Shown piece by piece: positions 2,317-56,467 of a stretch of DNA of 64,000 nt. The first letter of the stretch is position 1. Each line of letters opens with the position of its first letter. This DNA is from Collimonas fungivorans Ter331 (GTDB lineage: Bacteria > Pseudomonadota > Gammaproteobacteria > Burkholderiales > Burkholderiaceae_D), in NCBI RefSeq assembly GCF_000221045.1, contig NC_015856.1, positions 2,238,687 to 2,302,686 on the forward strand. Direction: 5' to 3'. The position numbers were made by a program, and so were the translations under genes. The notes under the pieces were generated by a model. The model was given only the letters and a program-made list of their open reading frames with translations, did not search any database and had not been told where the DNA came from.

Positions 2317-2318
2317 TC

Positions 2319-3494
2319 ATGCTTTATCTTAATCAACTCGGCATGGTGTGTCCGCTTGGCGAAAGCCACGCGGAGATCAGCCGTCGCCTGTTCGCCGGCG
2401 ACAGCGGGGTCGGCATGACCGCGCGTCATTCGCCGGGACGGGAGCTGGCGCTGGGTTGCGTCGAGACCGCGCTGCCCGATGTCAGCGCGCTGCCGCTGGG
2501 CCAGCGCAGCCGCAATAATCAGCTGGCTCTGGCGGCGCTGGCGCAGATCCGGCCGCACGTGGATGCCGCCATCCAGCAGTTTGGCGCAGGACGGGTGGCG
2601 ATCGTGCTCGGCACCAGCACTTCCGGCATCGCGCAGAGCGAAGCGGCGTTTCGCTATCGCCTGCAGCATGCAAGGTTTCCTGCCGATTTTGACTATGGGC
2701 AGCAAGAAATGGCTTCGCCGGCGGCGACCCTGGCGTCGGTGCTGGGCGTGACCGGGCCCGCCTACGTGCATTCCAGCGCCTGCGCTTCCAGCAGCAAGGC
2801 GATGGCCAGCGCCGCCCGCCTGATCAACATGGGGCTGTGCGATGCGGTGCTGACCGGCGGCGTCGATTCGCTCTGCGCGTTCACAGTGGCCGGCTTCGGC
2901 GCGCTGGAATCGGTCAGCGCGGCGCGCTGCAATCCGTTCAGCGCCAATCGCAACGGCATCAATATCGGCGAGGGCGCCGCCCTGTTCTTGATGAGCAAGG
3001 CCGAAGCAAGCGTGAGTCTGCGCGGCTGGGGCGAATCTTCCGACGGCTACCATATTTCAGCGCCGGATCCGTCCGGCGCCGGCGCCCGCAGCGCGATCGA
3101 GCAAGCGTTGGCGCGTGCCGGCGTGGCGCCAAAACACATCGATTACATCAATCTGCACGGCACCGCCACTGTGCAAAACGACGCCATGGAAGGGCGCGTG
3201 ATCGCTGCCTTGTTTGCCGACGATGTGGCGCTCAGCTCGACCAAGCCGTTTACCGGCCATGCGCTGGGCGCTGCCGGCGCGGTGGAGGCAGGCCTGTGCT
3301 GGCTGGCGATGCAGGACGACAATCCGCAGGGCCAGCTGCCGCCGCATTTGTGGGACGGCGCCTGCGATCCCGGCCTGCCGCAGCTGAACCTGCTGCCGGC
3401 CGGGGCTCGCCTTGGACATCCCTTGCGCTGGGCTTTGAGTAACTCTTTTGCATTTGGCGGCGCCAATGCAAGTTTGCTGCTGGGACGGGAATGA
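2319..3494 (+). CDS. beta-ketoacyl-ACP synthase (first ketosynthase of the pigment cluster)
   Basis: 391 residues of thiolase-fold ketosynthase. The Cys-His-His triad is visible: Cys155 in SSACASSSK, His280 in NLHGTATVQ and His314 in FTGHALGAAGA, so the protein should condense and not merely act as a chain-length factor. It extends the polyene chain with malonyl-ACP units. The order ketosynthase, dehydratase, ketoreductase, ketosynthase matches the distal block (O-P-Q-R) of known aryl polyene clusters. The stop overlaps the next start (ATGA), showing tight coupling. Confidence 0.88.
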   Translation: MLYLNQLGMVCPLGESHAEISRRLFAGDSGVGMTARHSPGRELALGCVETALPDVSALPLGQRSRNNQLALAALAQIRPHVDAAIQQFGAGRVAIVLGTSTSGIAQSEAAFRYRLQHARFPADFDYGQQEMASPAATLASVLGVTGPAYVHSSACASSSKAMASAARLINMGLCDAVLTGGVDSLCAFTVAGFGALESVSAARCNPFSANRNGINIGEGAALFLMSKAEASVSLRGWGESSDGYHISAPDPSGAGARSAIEQALARAGVAPKHIDYINLHGTATVQNDAMEGRVIAALFADDVALSSTKPFTGHALGAAGAVEAGLCWLAMQDDNPQGQLPPHLWDGACDPGLPQLNLLPAGARLGHPLRWALSNSFAFGGANASLLLGRE

Positions 3495-3964
3495 TGGATC
3501 AACTGAACGCAGTCGAGGCGATGGATATCCGCCGTTTTTTGCCGCATTCCGGCGTCATGGTGCTGCTGGACCGGCTGCTGGCGGCCGGCGAGGAAGATTT
3601 GCAGGCAGAAGTGGCGATCCGGCCGGACAGCCTGTTTTGCGATGGACAAGGCGTGCCGGCCTGGGTCGGGGTCGAGTACATGGCGCAGGCGATTGCCGCC
3701 TATGCCGGTTATACCGCACAGCTGCGCGGCGAACCGGTGAAAATCGGCTTCTTGCTGGGCACCCGCCGCTATGAAGCCAGTTGTCCGGCTTTTGCCGTCG
3801 GCAGCGTGCTGCAAATCCATGTCCAGAAGCTGCTGCAGGCAGACAATGGGATAGGATCGTTCGAATGCCAGATCCATGCCGCCGGGCAGCCGCTGGCAAG
3901 CGCTACCATTACCGTGTTCCAGCCGGCTGACGCGGCTGTTTTTCTTGAGGGAAGTACTGAATGA
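3491..3964 (+). CDS. 3-hydroxyacyl-ACP dehydratase, ApeP-like hotdog protein
   Basis: 157 residues of hotdog fold. It begins with the block RRFLPHSGVMVLLDRLL, whose PH(S/R) element carries the likely active-site His of FabZ/ApeP dehydratases, and continues with a WVGVEYMAQAIAAYAG helix typical of this family. It would remove water after ketoreduction to give the conjugated double bonds of the polyene. Such ApeP-type proteins work with a partner dehydratase (ApeI), which is not seen here and probably lies before the window. Start overlaps the ketosynthase stop by 4 bp; the end overlaps the reductase start by 4 bp. Confidence 0.85.
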   Translation: MMDQLNAVEAMDIRRFLPHSGVMVLLDRLLAAGEEDLQAEVAIRPDSLFCDGQGVPAWVGVEYMAQAIAAYAGYTAQLRGEPVKIGFLLGTRRYEASCPAFAVGSVLQIHVQKLLQADNGIGSFECQIHAAGQPLASATITVFQPADAAVFLEGSTE

Positions 3965-4725
3965 TGTTGGAATCGAACCAGGCAGCGCCGGCTGCCCGCC
4001 TGAACCAGAGCGTGCTGGTCACCGGCTCCAGCCGCGGCATCGGCAAGGCGATTGCATTGCGGCTGGCGCGCGATGGCTACGATATCGTCTTGCATTGCCA
4101 TCAGCAGCGCGCGGCAGCCGATGCCGTGGCGCAGACGGTGCGCGAGCTGGGAGTGCAGGCGCGCGTCCTGCAATTCGACATAGGCGACCGCCAGGCCAGC
4201 GCCGCTGCCTTGCTGGCGGATGTCGAACAGCATGGCTGTTATTACGGCGTGGTGTGCAATGCCGGCGTGGCGCGCGACAACGCTTTCCCTGCCATGCCTG
4301 GCGAGGATTGGGACCTGGTGCTGAAGACCAACCTGGACGGTTTCTACAACGTGCTCAATCCGCTGGTGATGCCGATGGTGCAGCGGCGCGCGCCCGGCCG
4401 CATCGTCACCTTGGCTTCGGTGTCGGGCCTGATAGGCAACCGCGGCCAGGTCAACTACAGCGCCGCCAAGGCCGGCATCATCGGCGCCAGCAAGGCGCTG
4501 GCGATCGAGCTGGCCAAGCGCAACATCACGGTCAACTGCGTCGCTCCCGGCCTGATCGAAACCGACATGATCAGCGAGGTGCCGCTGGACGAAGCGCTCA
4601 AGCTGATCCCGGCGCGCCGGGTCGGCAAGCCGGAAGAGGTGGCGGCGACGGTGGCCTTCCTGATGCACGCCGACGCCGCGTACATCACGCGCCAGGTGAT
4701 CTCGGTCAACGGAGGCATGGCATGA
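3961..4725 (+). CDS. 3-oxoacyl-ACP reductase, FabG/ApeQ-like
   Basis: 254 residues of classical short-chain dehydrogenase. The NADPH site TGSSRGIG is at residues 21-28, CNAG marks the central strand and YSAAK gives catalytic Tyr166 and Lys170. The C-terminal SVNGGMA is typical of FabG. It reduces the 3-keto group in each elongation round of the polyene. It overlaps neighbours by ATGA at both ends. A role in general fatty acid synthesis is unlikely because of its place between two pigment ketosynthases. Confidence 0.9.
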   Translation: MMLESNQAAPAARLNQSVLVTGSSRGIGKAIALRLARDGYDIVLHCHQQRAAADAVAQTVRELGVQARVLQFDIGDRQASAAALLADVEQHGCYYGVVCNAGVARDNAFPAMPGEDWDLVLKTNLDGFYNVLNPLVMPMVQRRAPGRIVTLASVSGLIGNRGQVNYSAAKAGIIGASKALAIELAKRNITVNCVAPGLIETDMISEVPLDEALKLIPARRVGKPEEVAATVAFLMHADAAYITRQVISVNGGMA

Positions 4726-5966
4726 CGCGTACGCTGACAGAACGGCGGGTAGTAGTGACCGGCATGGCCGGCATCAGCCCGATCGGCAACGACTGGGAGG
4801 CCATCCGCAGCCACCTCGGCAGTTATCGCAACGCCATAGTGCGGATGGAGGACTGGGCCGGTTACGACGGCCTGAACACCCAGCTGGGAGCTCCCGCCGC
4901 CGAGTTCGCCTTGTCCGAGCGTTATAACCGCAAGAGCATGCGCAGCATGGGACGGGTTGCCTTGATGGCGACCCGCGCCAGCGAACTGGCGCTGGCGGAC
5001 GCCGGCCTGCTTGACGATCCGGTGCTGAAAAGCGGCGCCTGCGGTGTCGCCTACGGTTCGTCTGCCGGCACACCGAAGGCGATCGGCGATTTCGGCCGGA
5101 TGATGGATGAGCGCAGCACGCGCGGCATCAACGCCACCACCTATATCAAAATGATGGCGCACACGGCGCCGGTCAATATCGGCGTGTTTTTCGGCATTAC
5201 CGGGCGCGTGATCACCACATCCAGCGCCTGTACTTCCGGCAGCCAGGGCATCGGCTACGCCTATGAAGCCATCCGCAGCGGCCGCCAGGCGATCATGGTG
5301 GCCGGCGGCGCCGAGGAACTGTGCGCGACCGAAGCGGCGGTATTCGACACCCTGTTCGCCACCAGCGTGCGCAACGACACCCCGGCCCTGACACCCAGTC
5401 CGTTCGACAGCAGCCGCGACGGCCTGGTGATCGGCGAGGGCGCCGGCAGCCTGATCCTGGAAGATTTCGACCATGCGCGCGCCCGGGGCGCAAAAATGTA
5501 CGCTGAAATCGTAGGCTTCGGCACCAACAGCGACGGTTGCCACGTCACCCATCCGAACGCCGACACCATGCAGGTGGCGATGACGCTGGCGCTGGCCGAC
5601 GCCGCCTTGCCGGCAAGCGCCATCGGTTACATCAACGCCCATGGCACCGGCACCGAGCAGGGCGACATAGCCGAATCTCATGCCACCGCCGCCGTGTTCG
5701 CGCGGCACACGCCGATCAGTTCGCTGAAGAGCTACACCGGCCACACGCTGGGTGCTTGCGGCGCCCTGGAAGCCTGGATCGGCATCGAAATGATGCGCTC
5801 CGGCTGGTTCGCGCCGACCATCAACCTGAAGCAGCTGGACCCGCTGTGCGCCGAGCTGGACTACATTGTCGACGAAGGACGCAGCTTGCAATGCGAGTAT
5901 TTCATGTCGAACAATTTTGCGTTTGGCGGCATCAATACTTCCTTGATTTTCAAACGCCTGGATTAA
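4722..5966 (+). CDS. beta-ketoacyl-ACP synthase (second ketosynthase of the pigment cluster)
   Basis: 414 residues from the ATG that overlaps the reductase stop; the reading frame is open further upstream but the FabF-like start TERRVVVTGMAGISPIG fixes the beginning. The triad is complete: Cys170 in SSACTSGSQ, His307 in NAHGTGTEQ and His341 in YTGHTLGACGA. It resembles FabF/ApeR and may perform the first condensation or supply a second chain-length preference. With the first ketosynthase it completes the elongation enzymes of the cluster. The phosphopantetheinyl transferase follows 3 bp later. Confidence 0.88.
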   Translation: MTRTLTERRVVVTGMAGISPIGNDWEAIRSHLGSYRNAIVRMEDWAGYDGLNTQLGAPAAEFALSERYNRKSMRSMGRVALMATRASELALADAGLLDDPVLKSGACGVAYGSSAGTPKAIGDFGRMMDERSTRGINATTYIKMMAHTAPVNIGVFFGITGRVITTSSACTSGSQGIGYAYEAIRSGRQAIMVAGGAEELCATEAAVFDTLFATSVRNDTPALTPSPFDSSRDGLVIGEGAGSLILEDFDHARARGAKMYAEIVGFGTNSDGCHVTHPNADTMQVAMTLALADAALPASAIGYINAHGTGTEQGDIAESHATAAVFARHTPISSLKSYTGHTLGACGALEAWIGIEMMRSGWFAPTINLKQLDPLCAELDYIVDEGRSLQCEYFMSNNFAFGGINTSLIFKRLD

Positions 5967-5969
5967 GCC

Positions 5970-6680
5970 ATGCGGTCCGCGTTCATCTTGCTGTACGACG
6001 CCAGGCAGCTGGCGGATCATGACCGCGACCGTTTTCTTGCCTGTCTGGGCGAGTCGGAATTGCTGCGTTACCGGCGATTTTTGCGGCCGCTGCGCCAGCG
6101 CGAGTTCTTGCTGGGACGGATATTGCTGCGCTTTGCCGTTGCGCGCCTGGCTGGCGTCGCGCTTGAAGCGGTGCATGTCGCCGAGCGTAAAAACCAGGCG
6201 CCGTCGGTGCAACTTCCGCTCGCCGGCGCCGCGCTTCCTTTCTTCAGTTTGTCGCATAGCCGCGGCTGGGTGGCTTGCGCCGCCAGTGTCGATACCGCGC
6301 TGGGCCTCGATGCCGAGGTGCTGGATGCAGGGCGCGATGTGGACGCCATCGGCCGCGCCGCTTTTTCGGAGGCGGAAAGCATCTGGCTGTCGAGTCGTCC
6401 TGGCGAGGATAAAGCGGCGGATTTCTATGCCATGTGGAGCAGCAAAGAGGCGCTGTTTAAATTGATGTCGGTTCAGGGGAATGGCAGCCTATCGCCAGAG
6501 CATGTGGCCGCCGGGACGCGTTTGCGTTCGGGGCCGGATTGGCATGCGCGCACGTGGACGCAGCAGGGCCTGGTCATTACCCTGTGCAGTCGCGAGCGTT
6601 TGCAATCGGTAGCGCGGATTTGCCTGCAGGGCGCCGCACCGTCGGCCTGGACGCTGCAGCTGGACAACCGCTTGTCTTAG
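5970..6680 (+). CDS. 4'-phosphopantetheinyl transferase superfamily protein
   Basis: 236 residues with the Sfp-type motifs: LSHSRGW for CoA binding, LGLDAEV with the Mg2+-binding acidic residues, and WSSKEALFK with the catalytic Glu and Lys. It transfers the phosphopantetheine arm of CoA to the acyl carrier proteins of the pigment pathway; those ACP genes are not in the window. It is the last gene of the cluster and its stop overlaps by 4 bp the stop of the convergent phasin gene, with no obvious terminator between them. Confidence 0.85.
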   Translation: MRSAFILLYDARQLADHDRDRFLACLGESELLRYRRFLRPLRQREFLLGRILLRFAVARLAGVALEAVHVAERKNQAPSVQLPLAGAALPFFSLSHSRGWVACAASVDTALGLDAEVLDAGRDVDAIGRAAFSEAESIWLSSRPGEDKAADFYAMWSSKEALFKLMSVQGNGSLSPEHVAAGTRLRSGPDWHARTWTQQGLVITLCSRERLQSVARICLQGAAPSAWTLQLDNRLS

Positions 6681-43265: not shown

Positions 43266-45233
43266 ATGCCAAACACTAACAATACCTTCGCACCGGGCCG
43301 CAAGCTCGATGTGGTTTGCATCGGGCGCCTGGCGGTAGACCTGTATGCGCAGCAGATCGGCGCGCCGCTGGCGGATGTCAGCAGCTTCGCCAAGTACCTG
43401 GGCGGCTCTTCCGCCAACATTGCTTTCGGCTGCGCCAGGCTGGGCCTGAAATCGGCGATGCTGGCGCGGGTCGGCAATGAGCATAACGGCCAGTTCCTGA
43501 CGGCGGCGCTGGCGGCGGAAGGCTGCGATGTCAGCCAGATCAAGGTCGATCCGGAGCGGCTGACCGCGCTGGTGATGCTGGGCCTGAAAGACAAGGATAC
43601 TTTTCCCCTGATTTTTTACCGCGATAACTGCGCCGACATGGCGCTGGCGGAAGAAGACATCGATGAGGCTTTCATCGCCTCCAGCAAGGCGCTGCTGATT
43701 ACCGGCACCCATTTTTCCACGCAACAGGTGCATCGCAGCAGCAGCCTGGCGCTGGAATACGCGCGCCGCAACAATGTGCGCACCGTGCTCGACATCGATT
43801 ACCGGCCGGTATTGTGGGGCCTGACCCAGAAGGGCGACGGCGAGACGCGTTTCATCGCCAACGATGGCGTGACCAAACACCTGCAAGGCATCCTGCCGAA
43901 ATTCGACCTGGTGGTCGGCACTGAAGAAGAATTCATGATCGCTGGCGGCGGCCAGGACATCATCGCCTCCCTGCGGGCGGTGCGCGCCGTCAGCCAGGCG
44001 ACGCTGGTGGTCAAGCGCGGGCCGCTCGGCTGCGCCGTGATCCATGGTGCGATTCCAGCATCGCTGGATGCAGGTTTCAACTACAAGGGCGTGCAGGTCG
44101 AAGTGCTCAATGTGCTGGGCGCCGGCGACGCTTTCCTGTCCGGATTCCTGAAGGGCTGGCTGAACGGCGAAGACGATGAAAGCTGCTGCCGTTACGCCAA
44201 TGCCTGCGGCGCCCTGGTGGTGTCGCGCCATGCCTGCGCGCCGGCGATGCCGACGCCGGTCGAACTGGCGTATTTCCTTGAACATGCAGACCGCATGCAG
44301 CGGCCCGACCAGGATGCGCACCTGCAGCGCCTGCACCGGGTTACTGTGCCGCGCAAAACCTGGGATGAGGTGAATGTCTTCGCCTTCGACCATCGCAACC
44401 AGTTCTTTGAGCTGGCGCGCGAATTTGGCGGCGGCGGCGAGGCGCGCTTGCCGCAGCTCAAGCAGCTGCTGGTGCAGGCCGTGGCCGCCACCGAACAGGC
44501 GCTCGGTTTGCAAGGGAAGATCGGCATATTGTCCGACGACCGCTATGGCCAGGATGCGTTGAATGCCGCTACCGGACGCGGCTGGTGGATCGGCCGCACA
44601 GTAGAGCTGCCGCTTTCGAATCCGCTGGAATTCGACTATGGCCGTTCGATAGGTTCGCATCTGCTGAGCTGGCCTAAGGAACATGTAGTCAAATGCCTGG
44701 TGCAGTTCCATCCCGACGATGCGGTTGAAAAACGCCTGGAGCAGGAAGCCCAGATTCGCGGTTTGTACAACGCGGTGCAGGTCAGCGGCCATGAACTGCT
44801 GCTGGAAATCATTCCGCCCAAGGATTTGCCTAAGGCCGAGGATACCGTGCTGCGCGGCATCAAGCGTTTGTACAACCTGGGCATTTATCCCGAATGGTGG
44901 AAACTGGAATCGATGTCGGCCCGCCAGTGGGATGCGATCGACCGCCTGATCGCCGAGCGCGATCCCTATTGCCGCGGTGTGGTGCTGCTGGGGCTGGCGG
45001 CGCCGGTGGAAGAACTGGCGGCAGGTTTCCGCGCCTCGCGCCACAGCAAGACCTGCCGCGGTTTCATGGTGGGGCGGACGATTTTCCATGAACCGTCCAA
45101 GCTCTGGCTGCAAGGCCAGATCGACGATGCTGCCTTGATCGGGCAGGTGCGGGCCACATTCGAGAAACTGATCGGCGTCTGGCAAGCCAGCCGCAGCGAA
45201 CAGCCATCCAACCCAGCGGAGCGCGCAGCATGA
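43266..45233 (+). CDS. iolC: bifunctional 5-dehydro-2-deoxygluconokinase / DKGP aldolase (IolC-IolJ fusion)
   Basis: 655 residues. Residues 1-320 are a PfkB-family kinase (LGGSSANIAFGCARLGL; GAGDAF with the catalytic Asp), matching IolC, which phosphorylates 5-dehydro-2-deoxygluconate. Residues about 335-640 are a DUF2090 domain (VFAFDHRNQFFELA, IGILSDDRYGQDAL), the aldolase that cleaves the phosphate to dihydroxyacetone phosphate and malonate semialdehyde. The fusion is known in proteobacterial iol clusters. It overlaps iolD by 4 bp. Confidence 0.95.
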   Translation: MPNTNNTFAPGRKLDVVCIGRLAVDLYAQQIGAPLADVSSFAKYLGGSSANIAFGCARLGLKSAMLARVGNEHNGQFLTAALAAEGCDVSQIKVDPERLTALVMLGLKDKDTFPLIFYRDNCADMALAEEDIDEAFIASSKALLITGTHFSTQQVHRSSSLALEYARRNNVRTVLDIDYRPVLWGLTQKGDGETRFIANDGVTKHLQGILPKFDLVVGTEEEFMIAGGGQDIIASLRAVRAVSQATLVVKRGPLGCAVIHGAIPASLDAGFNYKGVQVEVLNVLGAGDAFLSGFLKGWLNGEDDESCCRYANACGALVVSRHACAPAMPTPVELAYFLEHADRMQRPDQDAHLQRLHRVTVPRKTWDEVNVFAFDHRNQFFELAREFGGGGEARLPQLKQLLVQAVAATEQALGLQGKIGILSDDRYGQDALNAATGRGWWIGRTVELPLSNPLEFDYGRSIGSHLLSWPKEHVVKCLVQFHPDDAVEKRLEQEAQIRGLYNAVQVSGHELLLEIIPPKDLPKAEDTVLRGIKRLYNLGIYPEWWKLESMSARQWDAIDRLIAERDPYCRGVVLLGLAAPVEELAAGFRASRHSKTCRGFMVGRTIFHEPSKLWLQGQIDDAALIGQVRATFEKLIGVWQASRSEQPSNPAERAA

Positions 45234-47098
45234 GTGCAGCCAAAACCATACGCCTGACCATGGCGCAAGCGCTGGTGCGCTACCTGGCCGCCTTGCGGGT
45301 CGATACCGCCGACGGCGAGGCGCCGCTGTTCGGCGGCGTCTTCGCCATCTTCGGCCATGGCAATGTAGCTGGCCTGGGCGAGGCGTTATACCAGCATCGG
45401 GAGCAGTTGCCGACCTATCGCGCGCATAACGAACAAGCCATGGCGCATGCCGCAATCGCCTATGCCAAGACGCACATGCGGCGGCGCATGATGGCGGTCA
45501 CCAGTTCGATCGGCCCGGGCGCCACCAACCTGCTGACGGCAGCGGCGCTGGCCCATGTGAACCGCCTGCCGGTGCTGCTGCTGCCGGGCGATATCTTTGT
45601 TTCGCGGCGGCCCGATCCGGTGCTGCAGCAGGTGGAGAATTTCCAGGACGGCGGCGTCTCCGCCAACGATGCGTTCCGGCCGCTGTCGCGCTATTTCGAC
45701 CGCATCTATTATCAGGAACAACTGTTGACGGCCTTGCCGCGTGCGATCCAGGTGCTGACCGACGCCGCCCAGTGCGGGCCGGTGACGCTGGCCCTGCCGC
45801 AAGACGTCCAGGCCATGGCTTACGATTATCCGGTCGAGTTTTTTGCGCCGCAGACAGTCAGGTTCCGCGCCCAGGGGCCGGCAACGGATGAGCTGCAGGC
45901 AGCGCTGGAGCTGCTGAAAAACGCCAGGCAGCCGTTGATCGTGGCCGGCGGCGGCGTGCTGTATGGCGAAGCCACCGAGGCGCTGCGCTGTTTTGCCGAA
46001 AAACATGCGGTGCCGGTGGCGGAAACCCAGGCTGGCAAGAGCGCCTTGGCGTGGCGCCATCCCTTGCAGCTGGGCGCGCTCGGCGTGACCGGCTCGCCGG
46101 CCGCCAATGCCTTGGCGCAGAAGGCCGATGTAGTGATTGCAGTAGGCACCCGGCTGCAGGATTTCACCACCGGTTCGCACTCGCTGTTCGGCCAGGCCAG
46201 GCTGCTGAGCATCAATGTCAATCCAGTCGACGCCATCAAATGGCAGGGGACGCCGATGTTGTCCGACGCCCGGCTAGGGCTGGCTGCCTTGTCGCAAGGC
46301 TTGCAGGACTGGCGTTCCAGCACCGGCTGGCACGCGCTGGCGCTGGAACAGGCCAACAGCTGGCGCGCCACGGTCGACAAGATCACCGGCCAGCGGGAAA
46401 TAGAGGCGCCGGCCTTGCCCTATGACGGCGAGGTGATCGGCGCGGTGCAGCGCTCCAGCATCGACTCGACCGTACACGATATCGTGGTCTGCGCCGCCGG
46501 CACCTTGCCGGCCGAATTGCATAAACTGTGGCGCACCTCGACTCCGGGCGGCTATCACGTCGAATACGGTTATTCGTGCATGGGCTACGAAATCGCCGGC
46601 GCGCTCGGCGTCAAGCTGGCGCAGCCGGAACGCGACGTGATCGTGATGGTGGGCGACGGCAGCTACCTGATGATGAATTCGGAAATCGCCACCTCGGTCA
46701 TGCTGGGCAAGAAACTGATCATCGTGGTGCTGGACAACCGCGGCTACGGCTGCATCAACCGCCTGCAGCAGGCCTGCGGCGGCGCGCCGTTCAACAACAT
46801 GCTGGAAGATTGCCTGCAGGGGCCGCAGGGCGCGCCGGCCGTCGATTTTGCCGCGCATGCAAGATCGCTTGGCGCGCTGGCGGAAAACGTCAAGACCATC
46901 GCCCAGCTGGAAGCTGCGCTGCAGCGGGCGCGCGCTGCCGACCGCACCTACTTGGTGTGCATCGACACCGACCCCGCGCGCACTACCGAAGACGGCGGCT
47001 GCTGGTGGGAAGTGGCGGTGCCGGAAGTGTCCGAACGGCCGCAGGTGCAAGCCGCGCGGGCCGAATATGAACTAGCCCGCCACAGTCAAAAAGTGTAG
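45230..47098 (+). CDS. iolD: 3D-(3,5/4)-trihydroxycyclohexane-1,2-dione acylhydrolase IolD
   Basis: 622 residues of thiamine-diphosphate enzyme. The catalytic Glu is in the AHNEQAMAHAAIAYAKTH block, and the ThDP/Mg motif is VGDGSYLMMNSEIATSVML...DNRGYG. IolD opens the inositol-derived ring to 5-deoxyglucuronate. Length is normal. Second catabolic gene, overlapping iolC/J by 4 bp, with iolE 31 bp further. Confidence 0.96.
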   Translation: MSAAKTIRLTMAQALVRYLAALRVDTADGEAPLFGGVFAIFGHGNVAGLGEALYQHREQLPTYRAHNEQAMAHAAIAYAKTHMRRRMMAVTSSIGPGATNLLTAAALAHVNRLPVLLLPGDIFVSRRPDPVLQQVENFQDGGVSANDAFRPLSRYFDRIYYQEQLLTALPRAIQVLTDAAQCGPVTLALPQDVQAMAYDYPVEFFAPQTVRFRAQGPATDELQAALELLKNARQPLIVAGGGVLYGEATEALRCFAEKHAVPVAETQAGKSALAWRHPLQLGALGVTGSPAANALAQKADVVIAVGTRLQDFTTGSHSLFGQARLLSINVNPVDAIKWQGTPMLSDARLGLAALSQGLQDWRSSTGWHALALEQANSWRATVDKITGQREIEAPALPYDGEVIGAVQRSSIDSTVHDIVVCAAGTLPAELHKLWRTSTPGGYHVEYGYSCMGYEIAGALGVKLAQPERDVIVMVGDGSYLMMNSEIATSVMLGKKLIIVVLDNRGYGCINRLQQACGGAPFNNMLEDCLQGPQGAPAVDFAAHARSLGALAENVKTIAQLEAALQRARAADRTYLVCIDTDPARTTEDGGCWWEVAVPEVSERPQVQAARAEYELARHSQKV

Positions 47099-47129
47099 GG
47101 GTTACCAGAGTTATATTGCGAGAGAGACC

Positions 47130-48032
47130 ATGACATTTAACGTAAAGATCGGCATCAACCCGATTTCCTGGATGAACGACGACCTGCCTTCGCTGGGCGG
47201 CGAGACGCTGCTGGAAACGGCGCTGGCCGAAGGCGCGCAGATCGGTTATCGCGGCTTCGAGCTGGGCAACAAGTTTCCCAAGGAACCGGCAGCGCTGGCG
47301 GCGGTGCTCGGCAAATACCGGCTGGAATGTATTTCGGGCTGGTATTCCGGCCGCCTGGCGACCGGCACGGTGGAGGATGAAATCGCCGCCGTCGGTCCGC
47401 ACCTGCGGCTGCTGGCGGAAAACGGTTCCAAGGTCATGGTGTACGGAGAAGTCGCCAACGCCATCCAGGGCCGGCCGGATCCGCTCTACAAGCGGCCGCG
47501 TTTCCTGAGCGACCTGGAGTGGCGGCAGTATGCCGACAAGCTGACTGCGTTTGCGCGTTTCACCTTGTCGCACGGCGTGCGCCTGGCTTACCACCATCAC
47601 ATGGGCGCCTACGTTGAAACCCCGGCCGATATCGAACGCCTGATGGCGCTGACCGGCGATGAAGTCGGCTTGCTGTTCGACAGCGGCCACGTCACGTTTG
47701 CCGGCGGCGATCCGTTGCAGGTGCTGGAGCAGCATATCAAGCGTGTCTGCCATGTCCATTGCAAGGATGTGCGGCCGGCGGTGGTGAAGATGGCGCGCAA
47801 CGGCAACTGGAGTTTCCTGCAGGCGGTGATCAACGGCGCGTTTACCGTGCCGGGCGACGGTGCCATCGATTTCGACGGCTTGCTGCGCTTGCTGTACCGG
47901 CATGGCTACGCCGGCTGGCTGGTGGTCGAGGCGGAGCAGGATCCGGCCGTCGCTCCGAGCTATCAATATGCCGACATGGGTTATCGCCACTTGGCCGGGC
48001 TGGTGAACATCATCGGCAAGGAGGCGGCATGA
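47130..48032 (+). CDS. iolE: myo-inosose-2 dehydratase IolE
   Basis: 300 residues of TIM barrel, starting KIGINPISWMNDDLPSLGG, a signature of IolE. Metal-binding residues are probably in LLFDSGHVTFAGG, VCHVHCKDVRP and WLVVEAEQDP. It removes water from 2-keto-myo-inositol to give the dione that IolD hydrolyses. A GAGAGA site precedes the ATG; the end overlaps iolB by 4 bp. Confidence 0.95.
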   Translation: MTFNVKIGINPISWMNDDLPSLGGETLLETALAEGAQIGYRGFELGNKFPKEPAALAAVLGKYRLECISGWYSGRLATGTVEDEIAAVGPHLRLLAENGSKVMVYGEVANAIQGRPDPLYKRPRFLSDLEWRQYADKLTAFARFTLSHGVRLAYHHHMGAYVETPADIERLMALTGDEVGLLFDSGHVTFAGGDPLQVLEQHIKRVCHVHCKDVRPAVVKMARNGNWSFLQAVINGAFTVPGDGAIDFDGLLRLLYRHGYAGWLVVEAEQDPAVAPSYQYADMGYRHLAGLVNIIGKEAA

Positions 48033-48823
48033 GCTTGCTCGTCAAGGGCCAGGCGCAAGGACGGGAAATCGTCAGCGTCACGCCGCAGTCGGCCAACTGG
48101 CGTTTTGTCGGTTTTGCCGCCTATCGCCTGGCGGCCGCTGAACGGATCCGCTTCGATACCGCCGAGCGCGAGGTGTGCATCGTGGTGCTGCGCGGCGTGG
48201 TCAGCGTGCAGGCCGGCGACCATGCCTGGAAAGAAATCGGCGAACGGCAAAGCGTGTTTGACCAGAGTTCGCCGTATGCCGTGTATGTGCCGCACAGCCA
48301 CGCCGTCACCATCAGCGCCCATGGCGATGCTGAAATTGCGGTCTGCAGCGCGCCCGGCCATGGCGGCCTGGGCGCGCGGCTGATCGAGCCGGGCATGGCC
48401 AAGCGTTCGGTGCGCGGGCAGGGTAGCAATACGCGCTACGTCTGCGATATCCTGCCGCAGACCGAACCGGCCGATCATTTGCTGGTGGTGGAAGTGGTGA
48501 CGCCGGGCGGTCATTCTTCAAGCTACCCGCCGCACAAGCACGATACCGATAACCTGCCGCAAGAGAGCTTCCTCGAGGAGACCTATTATCATCGCCTCAA
48601 TCCGCCGCAGGGTTTTGCTTTCCAGCGCGTGTATACCGATGATCGTTCGCTGGACGAATCGATGGCGGTGGAAAACCACGACGTGGTGATGGTGCCGCGC
48701 GGTTATCACCCGGTGGTGGCGCCGCACGGCTACGACAGTTATTACCTGAACGTGATGGCGGGGCCCAAGCGCGAGTGGCATTTCAAGAACGATCCGGCCC
48801 ATGAATGGATGTTGCAGCGCTGA
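48029..48823 (+). CDS. iolB: 5-deoxy-glucuronate isomerase IolB
   Basis: 264 residues from the ATG overlapping the iolE stop. A double cupin with SSYPPHKHDTDNLPQES as metal-binding block and EETYYHRLNPPQGFAFQRVY, MVPRGYHPVVAPHGYDSYYL near the end; all typical of IolB. It turns 5-deoxyglucuronate into 5-dehydro-2-deoxygluconate, the IolC substrate. Last gene of the operon. iolA, for malonate semialdehyde, does not follow. Confidence 0.95.
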   Translation: MSLLVKGQAQGREIVSVTPQSANWRFVGFAAYRLAAAERIRFDTAEREVCIVVLRGVVSVQAGDHAWKEIGERQSVFDQSSPYAVYVPHSHAVTISAHGDAEIAVCSAPGHGGLGARLIEPGMAKRSVRGQGSNTRYVCDILPQTEPADHLLVVEVVTPGGHSSSYPPHKHDTDNLPQESFLEETYYHRLNPPQGFAFQRVYTDDRSLDESMAVENHDVVMVPRGYHPVVAPHGYDSYYLNVMAGPKREWHFKNDPAHEWMLQR

Positions 48824-48966: not shown

Positions 48967-49051
48967 GCCCACGTGGCGGAATTGGTAGACGCGCATGGTT
49001 CAGGTCCATGTGCCGCAAGGTGTGGGGGTTCGAGTCCCTCCGTGGGCACCA
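48967..49051 (+). tRNA. tRNA-Leu (anticodon CAG)
   Basis: 85 bases including encoded CCA. Acceptor arms GCCCACG and CGTGGGC pair perfectly; anticodon stem CATGG/CCATG encloses loop TTCAGGT, giving anticodon CAG for CUG codons; a class II variable arm follows (TGCCGCAAGGTG area) and the T loop GGTTCGAGTCC is canonical. Transcribed alone, with a terminator 26 bp after. Confidence 0.97.
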
Positions 49052-49255: not shown

Positions 49256-52200
49256 TCAGTTTTTTGCCGGCGCCGCCGGGCAGCCGCGCCAATTGGTGGC
49301 CGCCGGGATCGATTCGCCTTTCATCACCAGCGTCAGCGCCCCCAGCTTGGCGTTATCGTTGACCGTCGCGCTGTACAGCACGAAGCTGCGCGGCCCCATG
49401 TAAACCCGGCTGCCGATGTTGACGTGGTCGATCTTCATGACCCGGTCTTCGAACAAGTGCGTCTGCGGGCAGGCCTGGGCATTCAGTTCGCTATAGTCGC
49501 CAATGGTGACGCAGTCGAACTCGGTGATGTCGGTGGTGTTCATGTAAACCCCGCGGCCGATATGGCAGCCCAGCAGGTTCAGGGCCAGCGGCAGCCACGG
49601 CGTGCCGCGCAGGTAGCTCATGAAGTTCGGTATCGCGATGCCTTCATACAGGTTGGTGACGCCCTCCGACAGCCAGACGAACGGGGTCCACATCGGCACG
49701 CTGCATTTCTTGTAGCGCCCGATCAGCAGCCACTTGAGGGCGGCGATGAAGATGAAGGTGCCGATGCCGTACAGCAGGCCGGCGCTGGTGAGCAAGGAGA
49801 TCACTTCGCCCCACTGGCCGGCGCCGGCGAGCGGCATCAGGTTCAGCACCACGGTATAACCGACCGCGATCACGATCGCATGCGGCGAGACAATGCGGAA
49901 GCCTTCCACCAGCGAACGGCCGAGGCGGCGCCGGCGCGACGGGCGGAACGTCAGGTGTTCCGGGAAGCCGCTGGTCTGCTCGCGCGCCGGCAGGTTGATC
50001 GGCGGCGAGCCGAGCCAGGTGTCGCCGGGCTGCATGCGGCCGTTGTCCGGCGCGCGCGAATGGACGCCGATCAGGACGTTTTCCGGCAGGATGCTGCCGT
50101 CCGGCACGTAAGCGCCGTTGCCGACGAAACTGCGGCGCGAGATCACGGTCGGCTTCATGGTCATCCAGCCGCCCTCGATCTGTTCGTCGCCGAGCAATAC
50201 GGCATCGGCGATAAAGGTGTCGTCGCCCAGGGTCAGCATGTCCGGCACCACGCCCAGCGCGGTCGAGATCTCGGCATGGCGGCCTACCTTGGCGCCCAGC
50301 AGGCGGTACCAGTAGGGCGCGTAGACGGTGGCATAGACGCCGTGCAAGACGCTCAGGCTGGATTCCTGGATCTGGTTGACCAGCCATTTGCTGCAATAGA
50401 TATTGCTGCGCACCGGCCAGCTGCCGGCCCGCATGCGCGGCAGCAGGCTCCAGCGGATGCCGGCCGAGAGCAGGGCGGTGCAGACGATCAGCACCGCGGT
50501 GGCGGGGAAGGCCATGACGAAATATTTGGTCAGCTGGAACGGCACGTTGCCGTTGCTTTGCAGCCAGGGGAAACGATCGGTGTCGTCGAGCCAGTCGATC
50601 AGGATGAAGCTGGGGAACACCGGCATGAAAAACAGGGTGGTGATGAGGAAGGCGCCGAACAGGAAAAATATCGATTCGCCCAGCTGACGCCTGCGCGTAA
50701 CCGGCGGTCGCGGCGGTTTCGAGGCAGGGTCGAAAGCGCCTGCATCGCGCGCCGGCGAGCCGGTCCAGATGCGGCCGGCCGGCACCGCCTGGCCTTCGCT
50801 GATGGCGCTCTGGCCTTCGACATGGCCGAAGACGCCGACATCCGTGTTGCCTTCCATGACGACATAGGAACCGATGCAGCTTTCGCGCTGCAAGGTGATC
50901 GGCCCCAGCCACAGCTCGCCGTGTTCGACGCGGGCATTCTCAAAATTGACGGCGTTGCCGATGCTCACGCCGTCCTCTATGGTGAGCAGGTCATGCGCGC
51001 GCAAGGTCATGGAGCCGATCACCACTTCCGAGCCGATGCGCGCGCCCAGCGCCCGCAGCCACCAGCTGTACAGGGTCGAGCCGCTCAGCAGGTAGGCCGG
51101 CGCCGCCTCGATCAGGCGGTCCGCCAGCCACCAGCGGTAATAGGTCAGGCCCCAGAGCGGATAACGGCCGGCTTTCAGGCGTCCGGCGATCAGCCATTTG
51201 GCGGCGATCGCAATGGCGAACTCGAACAGGGTGGCCAGCAGGAATACGCCCACCGACACCACGATTGCCAGGGCAATCGAATCGCCCGGATCGCCGGTGA
51301 AGAAGTGATAGGTGAAAAACGGCGCCAGCCATTGCATCATGCGCATCGCCACCAGCCACGGCACGGCGGCGGCCTGGGCGGCGCCGCACAGCCAGCGCTT
51401 CAGGTCCGACGGCGTGCTCCAGCCGGTGTCGACCGCGATGCCGGCGGCCGGCGCTACCGCCAGCACCTGGGCGATGCGGCCGATGGTGCGGTTCATGTAT
51501 ATGTCGCGCACCGTCACGTGGGCAAAATCGGGATTGGTGCGCAGAGCGGAAGCGAGTTTTGCCGCGAACAGCGAATGGCCGCCGAGATCGTTGAAGAAAT
51601 CGGCGCTGCGCTGGATAGGCTGACCAGGGAACAGTTTGTTCAGCGCTGCGAACAGGGCCGCTTCGGCCGGCGTTTCGGGGAGGTCGGAATCACCGCTGGC
51701 GGCGCCGGTTGCCGCCAGCGGCCTGGCTTTCAACGCCTTGCGGTCGATCTTGCCGGAAGTCAGGCGCGGCATTTCCTGCATCGCTTCGAAGAAACCGGGC
51801 ACCATATAAGGCGGCAGCCGTTCGGCCAGGGCGCTGCGCAAAACCGCAGGGACGATTTCCGCGCCGCTTTCGGCGACGATGAAAGCGATCAGCTGGTCGA
51901 TGCCGTCTTCCTGGCGCAATACCACCGCCACCGTGCCGACCCCGGGCTGGCGCGCCAGCACTTCTTCGATTTCTCCCAGCTCAACGCGGAAGCCACGGAT
52001 CTTTACCTGGTCGTCGGTGCGGCCCAGGCACTGGACCCGGCCGTCGGCATCGATCCGGGCCAGGTCGCCGGTGCGGTACAGGCGGCGGTCGTGTTCGCCG
52101 CTGGCCCAAGGGTTGGCCAGGAATTTCTCGGCCGTCAGTTCCGGCCGCCCCAGGTAACCCTCGGCGACGCCGGGGCCGGTAATGCACAGTTCGCCGACTT

Positions 52201-53305
52201 CGCCGCGCGGCAGCAGGAGCAGGCCGTTTTCCGGCGCCGCCCCGGTTATCACCTCAATCACTAGCAGGCCGTAGTTAGGCAAGGGCCGGCCTATGGTGAC
52301 CGTTTCATTGGCGCGCAGTTCGGCCAGGCTGGCCGATACCGTGGCTTCGGTGGGGCCGTAGGTGTTGAAAATTTGCCGGCCGCTCCTTGCCCAGCGGCTG
52401 ACCAGCGCTTCCGGGCACATTTCGCCGCCCAGGTTGATGATGCGCAGGCTTGGCACGTCCTGGTTGAACAGGGCCAGCAGGGTCGGCACCGCGTGCAATA
52501 CGGTGACGCCCTGTGCGGCCAGCGCCGGCGGCAAGGCTTCCGGGTCGGAAGCTAGCTCCTTGGGCGCGATCCAGAGCGTGGCGCCGGCCAGGTAGCTGAT
52601 CCAGATTTCTTCGAACGACATGTCGAAAGCAACCGAAAAGCCCTGGTAGACGCGATCGCTGGCGGTGATTCCCAATACCGCGTTTTCACTGCGCAGGAAA
52701 TGGCAGATGGCGCCCTGGGTGATGGCGATGCCTTTCGGCTTGCCGGTCGAGCCGGAAGTGTAGATGACATAAGCCGGATCGCTGCGCTGTACGTGCTGGC
52801 GGCGCAGCAACGGCGTCTCGCAGGGCGCTAGCAGCTGTTCTGCGGTCCAGACCTGGCACCGGCCCGAGTCCAGGCGCGGCGCGAATTGCTGGCAGCTGAC
52901 GATGCCCGGTGCTTGCGCGTCTTCCAGGCAGACCGCGATCCGGTCCGGCGGCGTATCGGCATCCAGCGGCAGCCAGGCGGCGCCGCTCTTGGCGATGCCG
53001 GCCTGCATGATCAGCAGGTCGATGCCGCGCGGCAGCCACAAACCGACGATCTGGCCCGGACCGACGCCGGCGGCGATCAGGCGTGAAGCGACCAGGTCGG
53101 CATGATGGTTGAATTCTTGATAACTCAGCCGGCGCTCGCCGAACACCATGGCGATCTGGGCCGGCATGCGCTCGGCGGTCGCCTCAAGCAGGTCGGCCAG
53201 GACTTCATCGCGTATCAGCTCAGGCCGGACCGGCCCATGCAGAACGTCCGGGTGACTGGAAAAACCGCTGGCAGCCGCGTTATCGACGAGCAAAGACTGA
53301 GTCAT
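49256..53305 (-). CDS. Pls/PosA-family membrane-bound non-ribosomal peptide synthetase
   Basis: 1349 residues. Adenylation domain about 30-535: YTSGSTGKPKG, NTYGPTEATVSA, YRTGDLARIDADGR, GKIDRKAL. A carrier domain follows with the phosphopantetheine Ser578 in LGGHSLFAA. From about 650 to the end comes the NRPS terminal domain of epsilon-poly-lysine synthetase: three left-handed beta-helix parts (IGSEVVIGSMTLRAHDLLTI; ISTALGVVPDMLTLGDDTFI; CHIGRGVYMNTTDITEFDCV) separated by pairs of membrane helices. No condensation or thioesterase domain. Streptomyces Pls uses this layout to link amino acids into an isopeptide homopolymer. Stand-alone gene, divergent from a GGDEF-EAL gene. Product here is unknown; a cationic homo-oligomer is my inference. 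Confidence 0.88.
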   Translation of the reverse strand: MTQSLLVDNAAASGFSSHPDVLHGPVRPELIRDEVLADLLEATAERMPAQIAMVFGERRLSYQEFNHHADLVASRLIAAGVGPGQIVGLWLPRGIDLLIMQAGIAKSGAAWLPLDADTPPDRIAVCLEDAQAPGIVSCQQFAPRLDSGRCQVWTAEQLLAPCETPLLRRQHVQRSDPAYVIYTSGSTGKPKGIAITQGAICHFLRSENAVLGITASDRVYQGFSVAFDMSFEEIWISYLAGATLWIAPKELASDPEALPPALAAQGVTVLHAVPTLLALFNQDVPSLRIINLGGEMCPEALVSRWARSGRQIFNTYGPTEATVSASLAELRANETVTIGRPLPNYGLLVIEVITGAAPENGLLLLPRGEVGELCITGPGVAEGYLGRPELTAEKFLANPWASGEHDRRLYRTGDLARIDADGRVQCLGRTDDQVKIRGFRVELGEIEEVLARQPGVGTVAVVLRQEDGIDQLIAFIVAESGAEIVPAVLRSALAERLPPYMVPGFFEAMQEMPRLTSGKIDRKALKARPLAATGAASGDSDLPETPAEAALFAALNKLFPGQPIQRSADFFNDLGGHSLFAAKLASALRTNPDFAHVTVRDIYMNRTIGRIAQVLAVAPAAGIAVDTGWSTPSDLKRWLCGAAQAAAVPWLVAMRMMQWLAPFFTYHFFTGDPGDSIALAIVVSVGVFLLATLFEFAIAIAAKWLIAGRLKAGRYPLWGLTYYRWWLADRLIEAAPAYLLSGSTLYSWWLRALGARIGSEVVIGSMTLRAHDLLTIEDGVSIGNAVNFENARVEHGELWLGPITLQRESCIGSYVVMEGNTDVGVFGHVEGQSAISEGQAVPAGRIWTGSPARDAGAFDPASKPPRPPVTRRRQLGESIFFLFGAFLITTLFFMPVFPSFILIDWLDDTDRFPWLQSNGNVPFQLTKYFVMAFPATAVLIVCTALLSAGIRWSLLPRMRAGSWPVRSNIYCSKWLVNQIQESSLSVLHGVYATVYAPYWYRLLGAKVGRHAEISTALGVVPDMLTLGDDTFIADAVLLGDEQIEGGWMTMKPTVISRRSFVGNGAYVPDGSILPENVLIGVHSRAPDNGRMQPGDTWLGSPPINLPAREQTSGFPEHLTFRPSRRRRLGRSLVEGFRIVSPHAIVIAVGYTVVLNLMPLAGAGQWGEVISLLTSAGLLYGIGTFIFIAALKWLLIGRYKKCSVPMWTPFVWLSEGVTNLYEGIAIPNFMSYLRGTPWLPLALNLLGCHIGRGVYMNTTDITEFDCVTIGDYSELNAQACPQTHLFEDRVMKIDHVNIGSRVYMGPRSFVLYSATVNDNAKLGALTLVMKGESIPAATNWRGCPAAPAKN

Positions 53306-53644
53306 GGATGAGGCAAGTAAAAGAGACAGGTGAACGATCGCAAGCGGGCGATGGTAGCACGCTGATATAGGTAACGTTCAGACAATTTTGCGGAAGCCCG
53401 ACGCTGTGGTTTTCCGGTCTGCGGCGGGGCTTGGCTGCGCTTGCCGCAAGGGGTTTACGCGGGTATAGACAAGGCATTTTCCCCTCCCTTGCTAACGAAC
53501 TTGCTAATGGGAAACTATTGGTCGTATGATGGGGTATTCAGGGCCCGGTTTCAAGTAGTATCGTTTTTCGCAATTTTCTGCAATTCCGCTAAAGCTTTCT
53601 GACTGTGCAGTGTTTTTGTCGGTGAAGATCAGTGAGGTTTTGTG
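53306..53644. other. divergent intergenic region between NRPS and GGDEF-EAL genes
   Basis: 339 bases without a credible gene. It holds start signals for both flanking genes. On the + strand TTGCTA (53501-53506), 18 bp, TATGAT (53525-53530) is a possible promoter for the GGDEF-EAL gene. No clear operator or terminator is seen; the Shine-Dalgarno of the NRPS gene is weak. Confidence 0.4.
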
Positions 53645-56467
53645 ATGCAGCGATTGAAGAAATTTTTCACCATGGACAGCGGCATGCGCTGGATCAAGGT
53701 GATCTTGCCGTTCCTGGCGATCGTGGCCTTGATGGTGGGGCTGCTGGCGTTCAGCATGAATATCCTGTCTTCGGTGCGCGCCTTTGTCGGCGGCGAGAGC
53801 CTGTGGTCGAAGGCGCAGAAGGAGGCGGTATTCCACCTGAACCAGTATGCGGTGACGCATGCCGACCCCGACTACCAGAAGGTGCTGAAGGCGCTGGCGG
53901 TGTCGATCGGCGACCGCCGCGCCCGGGACGAGCTGGATAAACCCAATCCGGACCTGCAAGTGGTGCGCCAGGGTTTCCTGGACGGCGGCAATCACCCGGA
54001 CGACATCGACGGCATCATCAGCCTGTATCGCAATTTCAAGAATTTCAGCCTGCTGCGGGAACCGGTCGCCAACTGGAAGATCGGCGACCAGCTGATCCAG
54101 GAGCTGAGCGCAGAAGCCAGCCGCCTGCATGCGGCGATCAGCGCCGGCAACCCCGATCCGCAGACAATGATCGCCAGCGTCGCCCGCATCCGCGAGATAG
54201 ACGCCGAACTGACGCCGCTGGAATTGCGCTTTTCCGCCAGCCTGGGCGAATCGTCGCGCCAGGTCCAGCGCCTGCTGCTGTTTGCGACGCTGACCATCGC
54301 CGTCGGCCTGATGATTTTCGGCAGCTGGATTTCGCGCTATATCCTGACCAAGAGCGACCAGTTCGAAGAGGCGCTGAAGATCAGCCAGGAACGGTTGCAC
54401 CTGGCGATGCTGGGTAGTAACGACGGCCTGTGGGACTGGGATATCCAGGCCGACAATATCTATTATTCGCCGCGCCTGAAGGAATTGCTGGGGTATTCGC
54501 TGGAAGAAGAAGAGCCGACGCCGCTGCAGTTCCTGAACTGCATCTATCCGTCGGACCTGGATGCGGTGCGCGCCAAGCTGACGTCGCACCTGCACGACAA
54601 TTCGCCGTGCGACATCGAGTTCCGGATCGTCACCAAGGGCGGGGAATTGCGCTGGGTCCGTTCCTGCGCGCAGTCCACCAGCAATTCGGCCGGCGAGCCG
54701 GTGCGCATGGCGGGCTCGTTTACCGACATCACCGCCCGCAAGCGCTCCGAGGAGCAGCTGTATGCCGCCAAGGAGCGCGCCCAGGTCACGCTGGAATCGA
54801 TAGGCGAGGCGGTGATCACGCTCAGCACCGACGGCCTGGTCGAATACCTGAACCCGACGGCGGAAATCCTGACTCGCTGGACGCTGGCCTCGGCGCGCGG
54901 CTTGCCGCTGGAAAAAATCCTGCACGTGGTGGGCGAAAGCTCGGGCAACCGGATTCCCGACCTGATCCCGCAGATCCTCGACAACAGCGTGCCGATCGAC
55001 CGCGCGTCCAACCTGCTGCTGGTCTGCGACGACGGCAGCGAGGTCGCGGTCAACCTGTCGGCCGAGCCGATCCGCAACCTGAGCGGCGAAACCATAGGCA
55101 CGGTGCTGGTGCTGCACGATGTCAGCAAGGACCGGGAATATGCGGCGCAGCTGTCGTACCAGGCCAGCCACGACGAACTGACCGGACTTATCAACCGGCG
55201 TGAGTTCGAGCGGCGCCTGACGGTGGCGATGATCACCTCGCGCGACCAGCAGCGCCAGCATGCCGTGCTGTACCTCGACCTGGACCAGTTCAAGGTGGTC
55301 AACGACACCTGCGGCCACGCCGCCGGCGACGAGCTGATCCGGCAGGTCAGCGTCTTGCTGAAACAGCGCTTGCGCGATACCGACACCATCGCCCGCCTGG
55401 GCGGCGACGAATTCGGCGTCTTGCTGGAGAACTGCCCGGTCGAGCATTCGCTGCGGATTGCCGAAGGATTGCGGCAGACCGTCGCCGATTTCCAGTTCGT
55501 CTGGACCAACAAGCCGTTCACCATCGGCGTCAGCATCGGCCTGATCAACCTGGCGGGCGAAATGCATACGTTGGGGCAGATCATGAGCGCGGTCGACGCC
55601 GCCTGCTACCTGGCCAAGGAAAAGGGCCGCAACCGTGTACACGAATACCGGCTGGACGACAGCGAGCTGTCGATACGGCACGGCGAGATGGAGTGGATCA
55701 CGCGTATCAATGAAGCGCTGACGCAAGAGAAGTTCTGCCTGTTCTCGCAAGAGATTTCTGCCCTGGGCAAGCCTCCCAGCCACGGCGCCCATTTTGAAAT
55801 CCTGCTACGCATGCTGGACAAGGATGACAACCTGGTGCTGCCGATGGTGTTCATTCCTGCCGCGGAACGCTACAACCTGATGCCGGCCATCGACCGCTGG
55901 GTCGTTTCGACGGTATTCGCCACCCTGGCGAAAATGCGCCAGCAAGGGCGCGGCCGGGAAATCCAGACCTGCGCCATCAACCTTTCCGGCACCAGCATAG
56001 GAGACAGCAATTTCCTCAGTTTTGTGCAGGAACAGCACGTGAAGTACGGCATCGCGCCGCAAATCATCTGCTTCGAGATTACCGAGACCAGCGCGATCGC
56101 CAATTTTGCCAAGGCTGCACACTTTATCCAGGAACTGAGAGGGGTGGGCTACCGCTTTGCGCTCGACGATTTCGGCGCCGGCATGTCTTCGTTCGCTTAC
56201 CTGAAGAACCTGCCTGTCGATTTCATCAAGATCGACGGCGGGTTTGTCAAAGACATGCTGAACAGCCCGACCGACTATGCAATGGTGGAGGCGATCAACA
56301 AGATCGGCCATTTGATGGGCAAGCAGACGATTGCCGAATTCGCCGTCAATGAACGGATCATCGGCACCCTGACCGAGATCGGCGTCGATTTCGCCCAGGG
56401 CTACGGCATCGGGCGGCCGCGCGCGTTTGGCATCGGCGTCGACAAGAACCTGCTGAACGCCGGTTAG
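53645..56467 (+). CDS. membrane PAS-GGDEF-EAL cyclic-di-GMP signalling protein
   Basis: 940 residues from the ATG at 53645 (GTG at 53642 possible). Membrane helix near residues 18-40, periplasmic helical sensor, second helix near 215-235, then PAS with PAC (GLWDWDIQADNIYYSP), a second PAS, GGDEF and EAL domains. The GGDEF motif is intact (586-590), so c-di-GMP synthesis is possible. The EAL motif reads EIL (Glu718), while downstream phosphodiesterase residues (ITETSAI, LDDFGAGMSSFAYL, IKIDGG) are mostly kept but VAEGVE is altered to IAEFAVN. Net activity cannot be told. Its stop overlaps the convergent ycaQ-like stop by 3 bp. Confidence 0.92.
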   Translation: MQRLKKFFTMDSGMRWIKVILPFLAIVALMVGLLAFSMNILSSVRAFVGGESLWSKAQKEAVFHLNQYAVTHADPDYQKVLKALAVSIGDRRARDELDKPNPDLQVVRQGFLDGGNHPDDIDGIISLYRNFKNFSLLREPVANWKIGDQLIQELSAEASRLHAAISAGNPDPQTMIASVARIREIDAELTPLELRFSASLGESSRQVQRLLLFATLTIAVGLMIFGSWISRYILTKSDQFEEALKISQERLHLAMLGSNDGLWDWDIQADNIYYSPRLKELLGYSLEEEEPTPLQFLNCIYPSDLDAVRAKLTSHLHDNSPCDIEFRIVTKGGELRWVRSCAQSTSNSAGEPVRMAGSFTDITARKRSEEQLYAAKERAQVTLESIGEAVITLSTDGLVEYLNPTAEILTRWTLASARGLPLEKILHVVGESSGNRIPDLIPQILDNSVPIDRASNLLLVCDDGSEVAVNLSAEPIRNLSGETIGTVLVLHDVSKDREYAAQLSYQASHDELTGLINRREFERRLTVAMITSRDQQRQHAVLYLDLDQFKVVNDTCGHAAGDELIRQVSVLLKQRLRDTDTIARLGGDEFGVLLENCPVEHSLRIAEGLRQTVADFQFVWTNKPFTIGVSIGLINLAGEMHTLGQIMSAVDAACYLAKEKGRNRVHEYRLDDSELSIRHGEMEWITRINEALTQEKFCLFSQEISALGKPPSHGAHFEILLRMLDKDDNLVLPMVFIPAAERYNLMPAIDRWVVSTVFATLAKMRQQGRGREIQTCAINLSGTSIGDSNFLSFVQEQHVKYGIAPQIICFEITETSAIANFAKAAHFIQELRGVGYRFALDDFGAGMSSFAYLKNLPVDFIKIDGGFVKDMLNSPTDYAMVEAINKIGHLMGKQTIAEFAVNERIIGTLTEIGVDFAQGYGIGRPRAFGIGVDKNLLNAG

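Follow-up and report, generated by a model that had tools for sequence, protein, structure and literature searches.

What might a non-ribosomal peptide synthetase (NRPS) make that has one adenylation (A) domain and one thiolation (T) domain, followed by a membrane domain, and that is encoded away from any evident pathway? The question is raised by a gene of the betaproteobacterium Collimonas fungivorans Ter331, located in a stretch of 64,000 nucleotides (contig NC_015856.1, positions 2,238,687 to 2,302,686; the window, whose own numbering is used below). The original prediction had described it as a stand-alone relative of Pls, the epsilon-poly-L-lysine synthetase, that may make a cationic homopolymer. 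We found that the closest known enzyme is not Pls but PosA of Acinetobacter baumannii (PMC10522769; PDB 8G95-8G98), so that ornithine is a better guess than lysine. Judging from its sequence, the window enzyme is most likely a delta-linked poly-L-ornithine synthetase of the PosA type. This enzyme type is already known from Acinetobacter, and the Collimonas gene is a further member.

The gene (P0001) lies at 49256..53305 on the minus strand (stop codon included) and encodes 1349 amino acids from an ATG start. The coordinates in the original prediction were exact, the strand had not been given, and the gene is intact as claimed: its 1349 codons run from ATG to stop, and none of the 14 Collimonas genomes that carry it has an internal stop. 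In an NCBIfam profile search, residues 643-1344 matched TIGR02353 ("Pls/PosA family non-ribosomal peptide synthetase") with 836.5 bits, about twice the curated cut-off of 423.1. Pfam matches to AMP-binding (PF00501, residues 40-385), AMP-binding_C (PF13193, 445-519) and PP-binding (PF00550, 553-614) account for the A and T domains. The A domain covers residues about 19-525 (51731..53251, minus strand), and the T domain (residues 553-614; 51464..51649, minus strand) carries its serine, S578, in an LGGHS motif. Out of six Pfam families searched at E values up to 0.1, none revealed a condensation or thioesterase domain. The predicted order of one A and one T domain before a membrane domain was thus borne out by Pfam, TIGR02353 and an AlphaFold2 model. 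The family model, specificity code, trees and fold prediction likewise support the Pls-like family, architecture and cationic substrate of the original prediction; its comparison with Pls stands for the family, but both the code and the two trees point to PosA, which makes delta-poly-L-ornithine in vitro, as the closest characterised enzyme. The gene, its domains, code, clade and conservation and the prediction of its fold were established in this analysis.

The ten specificity-code residues, placed by alignment within 51749..52624 (minus strand), read DMEHNGTVSK (D228, M229, E232, H271, N291, G293, T315, V323, S324 and K519). All ten equal those of PosA, whose code is printed as DMEHNGTVSK in PMC10522769. 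According to that paper, the Asp and Glu are essential, the Thr and Ser are responsible for holding the amine of the side chain, and the Met restricts how long the side chain can be; the residues tested there by mutation were D217, M218, E221, T304 and S313. PosA was found to prefer ornithine over lysine by >160-fold, with modest lysine activity in the adenylation assay; it made no lysine polymer, and a Met-to-Ala change brought lysine activity (PMC10522769). When compared with solved structures, the window A domain scored 517 bits against the A core of PosA (8g95) and 203 bits against Pls (7wew). As a control, seven other A domains of the host genome carry seven different codes and share 36 to 38% identity. 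Since Glu sits at code position 3, a neutral amino acid is unlikely as the substrate.

We then compared the code across an alignment of 146 sequences, which leaves out L001 and L125 as copies of the window gene, L002-L008 as other NRPSs, and L155-L173. DMEHNGTVSK occurs in 113 of them and the remaining 33 share ten other codes, although this prevalence is partly by choice, because L009-L118 were selected for being the top matches to the query or model. The code DAESIGTVVK was present in five sequences, all actinobacterial, one of which (L142) is annotated as Pls. These Pls-type sequences have Ala at code position 2, where the window enzyme has Met229. One relative from Skermanella (L149), with the code DFECLSVVTK, directly follows a diaminobutyrate transaminase gene, which fits a diaminobutyrate polymer.

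The kinship with PosA extends to both halves of the protein. Between the window enzyme and A. baumannii PosA, identity is 62.1% in the A domain (494 aligned residues) and 53.6% in the C-terminal part (702 residues); a Streptomyces sequence annotated as Pls reaches 39.8% and 29.9%, respectively. For both domains we built quick maximum-likelihood trees from 61 of the 146 sequences (no bootstraps; residues 141-525 for the A domain; treekit issued a long-branch warning). In both, PosA and the window gene fall within one clade of 29 sequences, with Shimodaira-Hasegawa-like approximate likelihood ratio values of 99 (A domain) and 100 (C-terminal domain), and the five Pls-type sequences form a separate clade. 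Within the PosA clade the code is DMEHNGTVSK in 28 sequences and DMEHNGSVSK in one. With neither the Pls-type pocket nor a place in the Pls-type clade, Pls as closest relative is ruled out by the code and both domain trees. PosA, in contrast, has the same domain order, code and clade as the window enzyme, and posA is likewise solitary, being termed a single-gene operon in PMC10522769. The two enzymes share only 62% (A domain) and 54% (C-terminal domain) identity, and come from different lineages and ecologies; moreover, the window product is predicted, whereas that of PosA was seen in vitro. Pls has in common with the window enzyme the family model and the A-T-membrane architecture, but differs in its code (DAESIGTVVK in the Pls-annotated L142), its clade and a peptidase gene that adjoins the synthetase in L142 and L151. 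In the same trees, the synthetase of L083, a contig labelled Candidatus Eremiobacterota, groups with betaproteobacteria, suggesting wrong binning or transfer.

To describe the membrane domain, we used an AlphaFold2 model of residues 531-1349 (alignment of 58 sequences; mean predicted local distance difference test score, pLDDT, 79.4; predicted template modelling score 0.83). Its secondary structure comprises six long helices arranged as three pairs, with a run of short strands after each pair, in agreement with the three beta-helix modules of the original prediction, the third of which is of low confidence. All coordinates that follow are for the minus strand. The long helices of the first pair, which presumably cross the membrane (residues 634-707, 51185..51406; model helices 104-138 and 147-177), precede a left-handed beta-helix, C1 (residues about 739-860, 50726..51091). 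A second helix pair (871-953, 50447..50695) is followed by C2 (about 1004-1095, 50021..50296), where Pfam Hexapep matched residues 1053-1083 weakly and below its cut-off, and a third pair (1124-1195, 49721..49936) by C3 (about 1246-1335, 49301..49570), which contains the motif QTHLFEDRVMK. C1, the first of the three units only, matched the hexapeptide acetyltransferase 3ect (Z 14.5, root-mean-square deviation 2.9, 143 aligned residues, model residues 177-330), and 37 chains reached a Foldseek E value of 0.001 or better, mostly acetyltransferases by title. Among the best 50 Foldseek and the best 50 VIA-align matches listed, we did not find a structure of the whole C-terminal domain, and a sequence search for solved structures of this domain returned weak hexapeptide matches only (best E 1.3e-5). 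Patel and Gulick predicted the same build for the C-terminal domain of PosA (PMC10522769).

Several residues of this domain are constant or nearly so. Q1281 is present in 146 of the 146 aligned sequences and H1283 in 145, with one gap, while D1034, N1063, E1214 and E1262 are invariant in all 146. In hexapeptide acyltransferases, a histidine in the beta-helix is the usual base. Because of this and of the conservation of Q1281 and H1283, our guess is that the third beta-helix, with these two as candidate catalytic residues, may be the polymerisation centre. The maltose and galactoside O-acetyltransferases, which share the fold of the first beta-helix, are soluble trimers that use acetyl-coenzyme A; in the window enzyme, unlike in such hexapeptide acyltransferases, the prediction places three units in a single chain within the membrane, with the carrier-bound aminoacyl group as the putative donor.

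By analogy with PosA and Pls, from which substrate, linkage and iteration are carried over, we infer the following course of synthesis. The A domain would bind L-ornithine, with E232, T315 and S324 holding the side-chain amine and M229 limiting its length, activate it with ATP and load it on the pantetheine arm of S578, an arm supplied by a phosphopantetheinyl transferase encoded elsewhere in the genome. The C-terminal domain, in this model three packed left-handed beta-helices on six helices embedded in the membrane, would then link each loaded ornithine to a delta-amine, either that of free ornithine or that of a short, non-covalently held chain, and repeated joining would yield short isopeptide-linked chains.

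The source of the pantetheine arm led to an unexpected difference between Collimonas and its relatives. Directly behind the synthetase, many relatives encode a small protein of the 4'-phosphopantetheinyl transferase superfamily (PF01648; superfamily match in five of five tested). Among the best 80 of 557 matches, such a gene was found at 58 loci, 40 of which match by construction, as 40 proteins from these loci were used to build the transferase model. The search covered the three forward frames behind the gene; one of the 146 aligned loci had too little DNA there. With the same model we detected it at 27 of 30 loci from the taxonomic family and at one of 20 phylum loci with enough DNA. At all 86 positive loci the transferase frame opens at most 51 bases past the synthetase stop, and often ahead of it. 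It was found at none of the six named Collimonas loci, in none of 14 annotated records and not in the window, and a relaxed search behind the window gene and the six Collimonas loci left no trace of it. In Sphingomonas (L145) and Shinella (L148), the gene that follows is annotated as a phosphopantetheinyl transferase; it falls below the threshold of our model. The "stand-alone" label therefore fits the window but not the relatives: it is a feature of Collimonas, because, with the six Collimonas loci set aside, 58 of the remaining 74 of the 80 loci carry the adjoining gene. The host genome holds three PF01648 genes above the cut-off, none of them behind the synthetase, and the Collimonas enzyme therefore probably borrows a general transferase. 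One of the three lies in the window at 5970-6680, within a fatty-acid-synthase-like cluster. In the literature passages covered, we found no mention of a synthetase-transferase pairing; the recurring neighbour offers a practical partner for expressing these enzymes.

We next looked at how widely the synthetase is kept. In the host genome (5.19 Mb, single contig), the window gene is the sole full-length match to the query protein; 17 further matches of 213-295 bits cover the A-T part only and lie in open frames of 1219-5675 codons, with weaker ones below. Among named relatives, those closest to the protein come from Collimonas strains (95% in the best segment for Collimonas sp. OK412). Of 15 Collimonas genomes, counting that of the window, 14 have the gene, free of internal stops; the genome that lacks it, G083, is 1.7 Mb in size and 99% complete, and looks reduced. 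For the taxonomic family, 120 of the 294 genomes sampled have a match above the TIGR02353 cut-off; for the order the count is 16 of 349 (five from the same family) and for the phylum 23 of 299, each count including the window's own genome. Compared with the six Collimonas loci, the ratio of non-synonymous to synonymous substitution rates was low throughout (A domain 0.08-0.16, T domain 0.08-0.15, C-terminal domain 0.035-0.10), and the gene is thus maintained under purifying selection. In four genomes (G126, G236, G237 and G287) the synthetase is split over two or three pieces, so it may be decaying or misassembled in some relatives. Three A. baumannii records of 3.7 to 4.1 Mb (H2-H4) are filed as plasmids despite their chromosome-like size.

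Several observations weigh against a poly-ornithine product. Code and clade predict a substrate but do not prove it, and two sequences with the code DMEHNGTVTK lie outside the PosA clade, so membership of that clade takes more than a near-identical code. The trees and alignment contain no fungal sequence; in the phylogeny of Patel and Gulick, most sequences from fungi branch off to the side of the ornithine group (PMC10522769), and yet the fungal family member Epls of Epichloe produces epsilon-poly-L-lysine (PMC7179176). Jiang et al. group fungal Pls with Streptomyces Pls instead (PMC8117764). The polymer of PosA itself was observed in vitro, and PosA activates D-ornithine at about half efficiency (PMC10522769). 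Within the window protein, the carrier-domain match to PF00550 (21.5 bits) barely exceeds the cut-off of 20.8, and the third strand stretch, which holds the proposed polymerisation centre, has pLDDT block means of 34-66 past its first few residues. In the literature found, we saw no report of a product, expression or activity for the window gene.

It is very unlikely, in our view, that the enzyme makes poly-lysine as Pls does. The two enzymes share the architecture and family model and an acidic residue in the third code position, and both the modest lysine activity of PosA and the poly-lysine of the fungal enzyme would fit such a product. Yet the Met of the window code, where the Pls-type sequences have Ala, is that of PosA, and it is with this same pocket that PosA discriminates against lysine and fails to polymerise it, whereas the Met-to-Ala change brought lysine activity. 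The Pls-type sequences also form their own clade in both trees, and no peptidase gene adjoins the window gene, unlike in the Streptomycetaceae loci L142 and L151. We also regard it as unlikely that the enzyme polymerises D-ornithine or a different diamino acid, or that its product is an oligomer of mixed composition or with a cap. The activation of D-ornithine by PosA speaks for such a product, as does the breadth of a family that covers polymers of several diamino acids and in which the A domain of one homologue prefers arginine (PMC10522769). However, the ten code positions are identical to those of PosA, the window neighbours tested include no racemase, aminotransferase or other tailoring gene, and the diaminobutyrate transaminase gene instead adjoins the Skermanella relative, whose code is different.

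The missing neighbour raises a third alternative, namely that the enzyme is present in Collimonas but silent or inactive for want of its partner transferase gene. The contrast between the relatives and the Collimonas loci described above favours this, and a search of the host genome with one such transferase gave no good match (best E 0.07). Against it, purifying selection is strongest in the membrane domain, the carrier serine is retained, and the genome has the three other PF01648 genes as well as further large NRPS frames. A. baumannii PosA also lacks such a neighbour by the same model, and was primed in vitro with Sfp. Taken together, these data make a silent enzyme quite improbable, and a delta-linked poly-L-ornithine synthetase remains our preferred interpretation.

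As for the role of such a polymer, Collimonas is a soil genus able to feed on living fungi (PMC4690342). Less expected was a near-universal occurrence of the synthetase in such a fungus-feeding genus; delta-poly-L-ornithine of synthetic origin inhibits yeasts. An antifungal role of the polymer in Collimonas is a guess; the link is tempting but unproven, because the inhibitory amounts of the synthetic polymer are high and PMC4690342 attributes the antibacterial and antifungal effects of Collimonas to other compounds. The main text of that paper contains no word beginning with "lysine" or "ornithine". A broader idea, which we consider doubtful, is that the whole genus secretes delta-poly-L-ornithine as a core agent that acts against fungi or loosens membranes, and that the Oxalobacteraceae as a whole inherited a unit of synthetase and dedicated transferase whose second gene was lost in Collimonas. 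In the literature found, a poly-ornithine product is reported only for PosA, from a clinical bacterium, and at the level of search listings we recognised no paper that deals with an enzyme of this kind from either Collimonas or the Oxalobacteraceae. With a PosA-like enzyme in 14 of the 15 genomes of a fungus-feeding soil genus, Collimonas therefore provides a natural setting for testing what such polymers are for.

Finally, we examined the surroundings of the gene. The claim that no other biosynthetic gene adjoins it holds, as the neighbours could be identified and none looks like part of a pathway. Downstream, an inositol catabolism operon (iolC-type kinase/aldolase fusion, iolD, iolE and iolB; 43266-48823, plus strand) converges on the synthetase gene, with a transfer RNA gene, tRNA-Leu (cag), in between (48967-49051, plus strand). 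Upstream and divergent lies a PAS-GGDEF-EAL gene (53642-56467, plus strand), and other neighbours are an AlkZ-like gene and a Dyp-type peroxidase gene. We also considered an exporter or hydrolase among the Collimonas neighbours and rejected it, since the synteny is general (inositol operon, PAS-GGDEF-EAL) and nothing is tied to the use of a polymer. In each of the six Collimonas loci, and in L085 as well, the cluster with the PAS-GGDEF-EAL gene adjoins the synthetase, whereas in L098 it lies farther off; through this gene, a putative shared control of the synthetase with biofilm signalling is possible. At the other end of the window, the fatty-acid-synthase-like cluster (28-6680, plus strand) comprises ketosynthases, a dehydratase-like protein, a reductase, a flavin adenine dinucleotide-dependent oxidoreductase and the phosphopantetheinyl transferase, the only one of these searched for; judging by the sequences of its genes, it looks like an aryl-polyene pathway.

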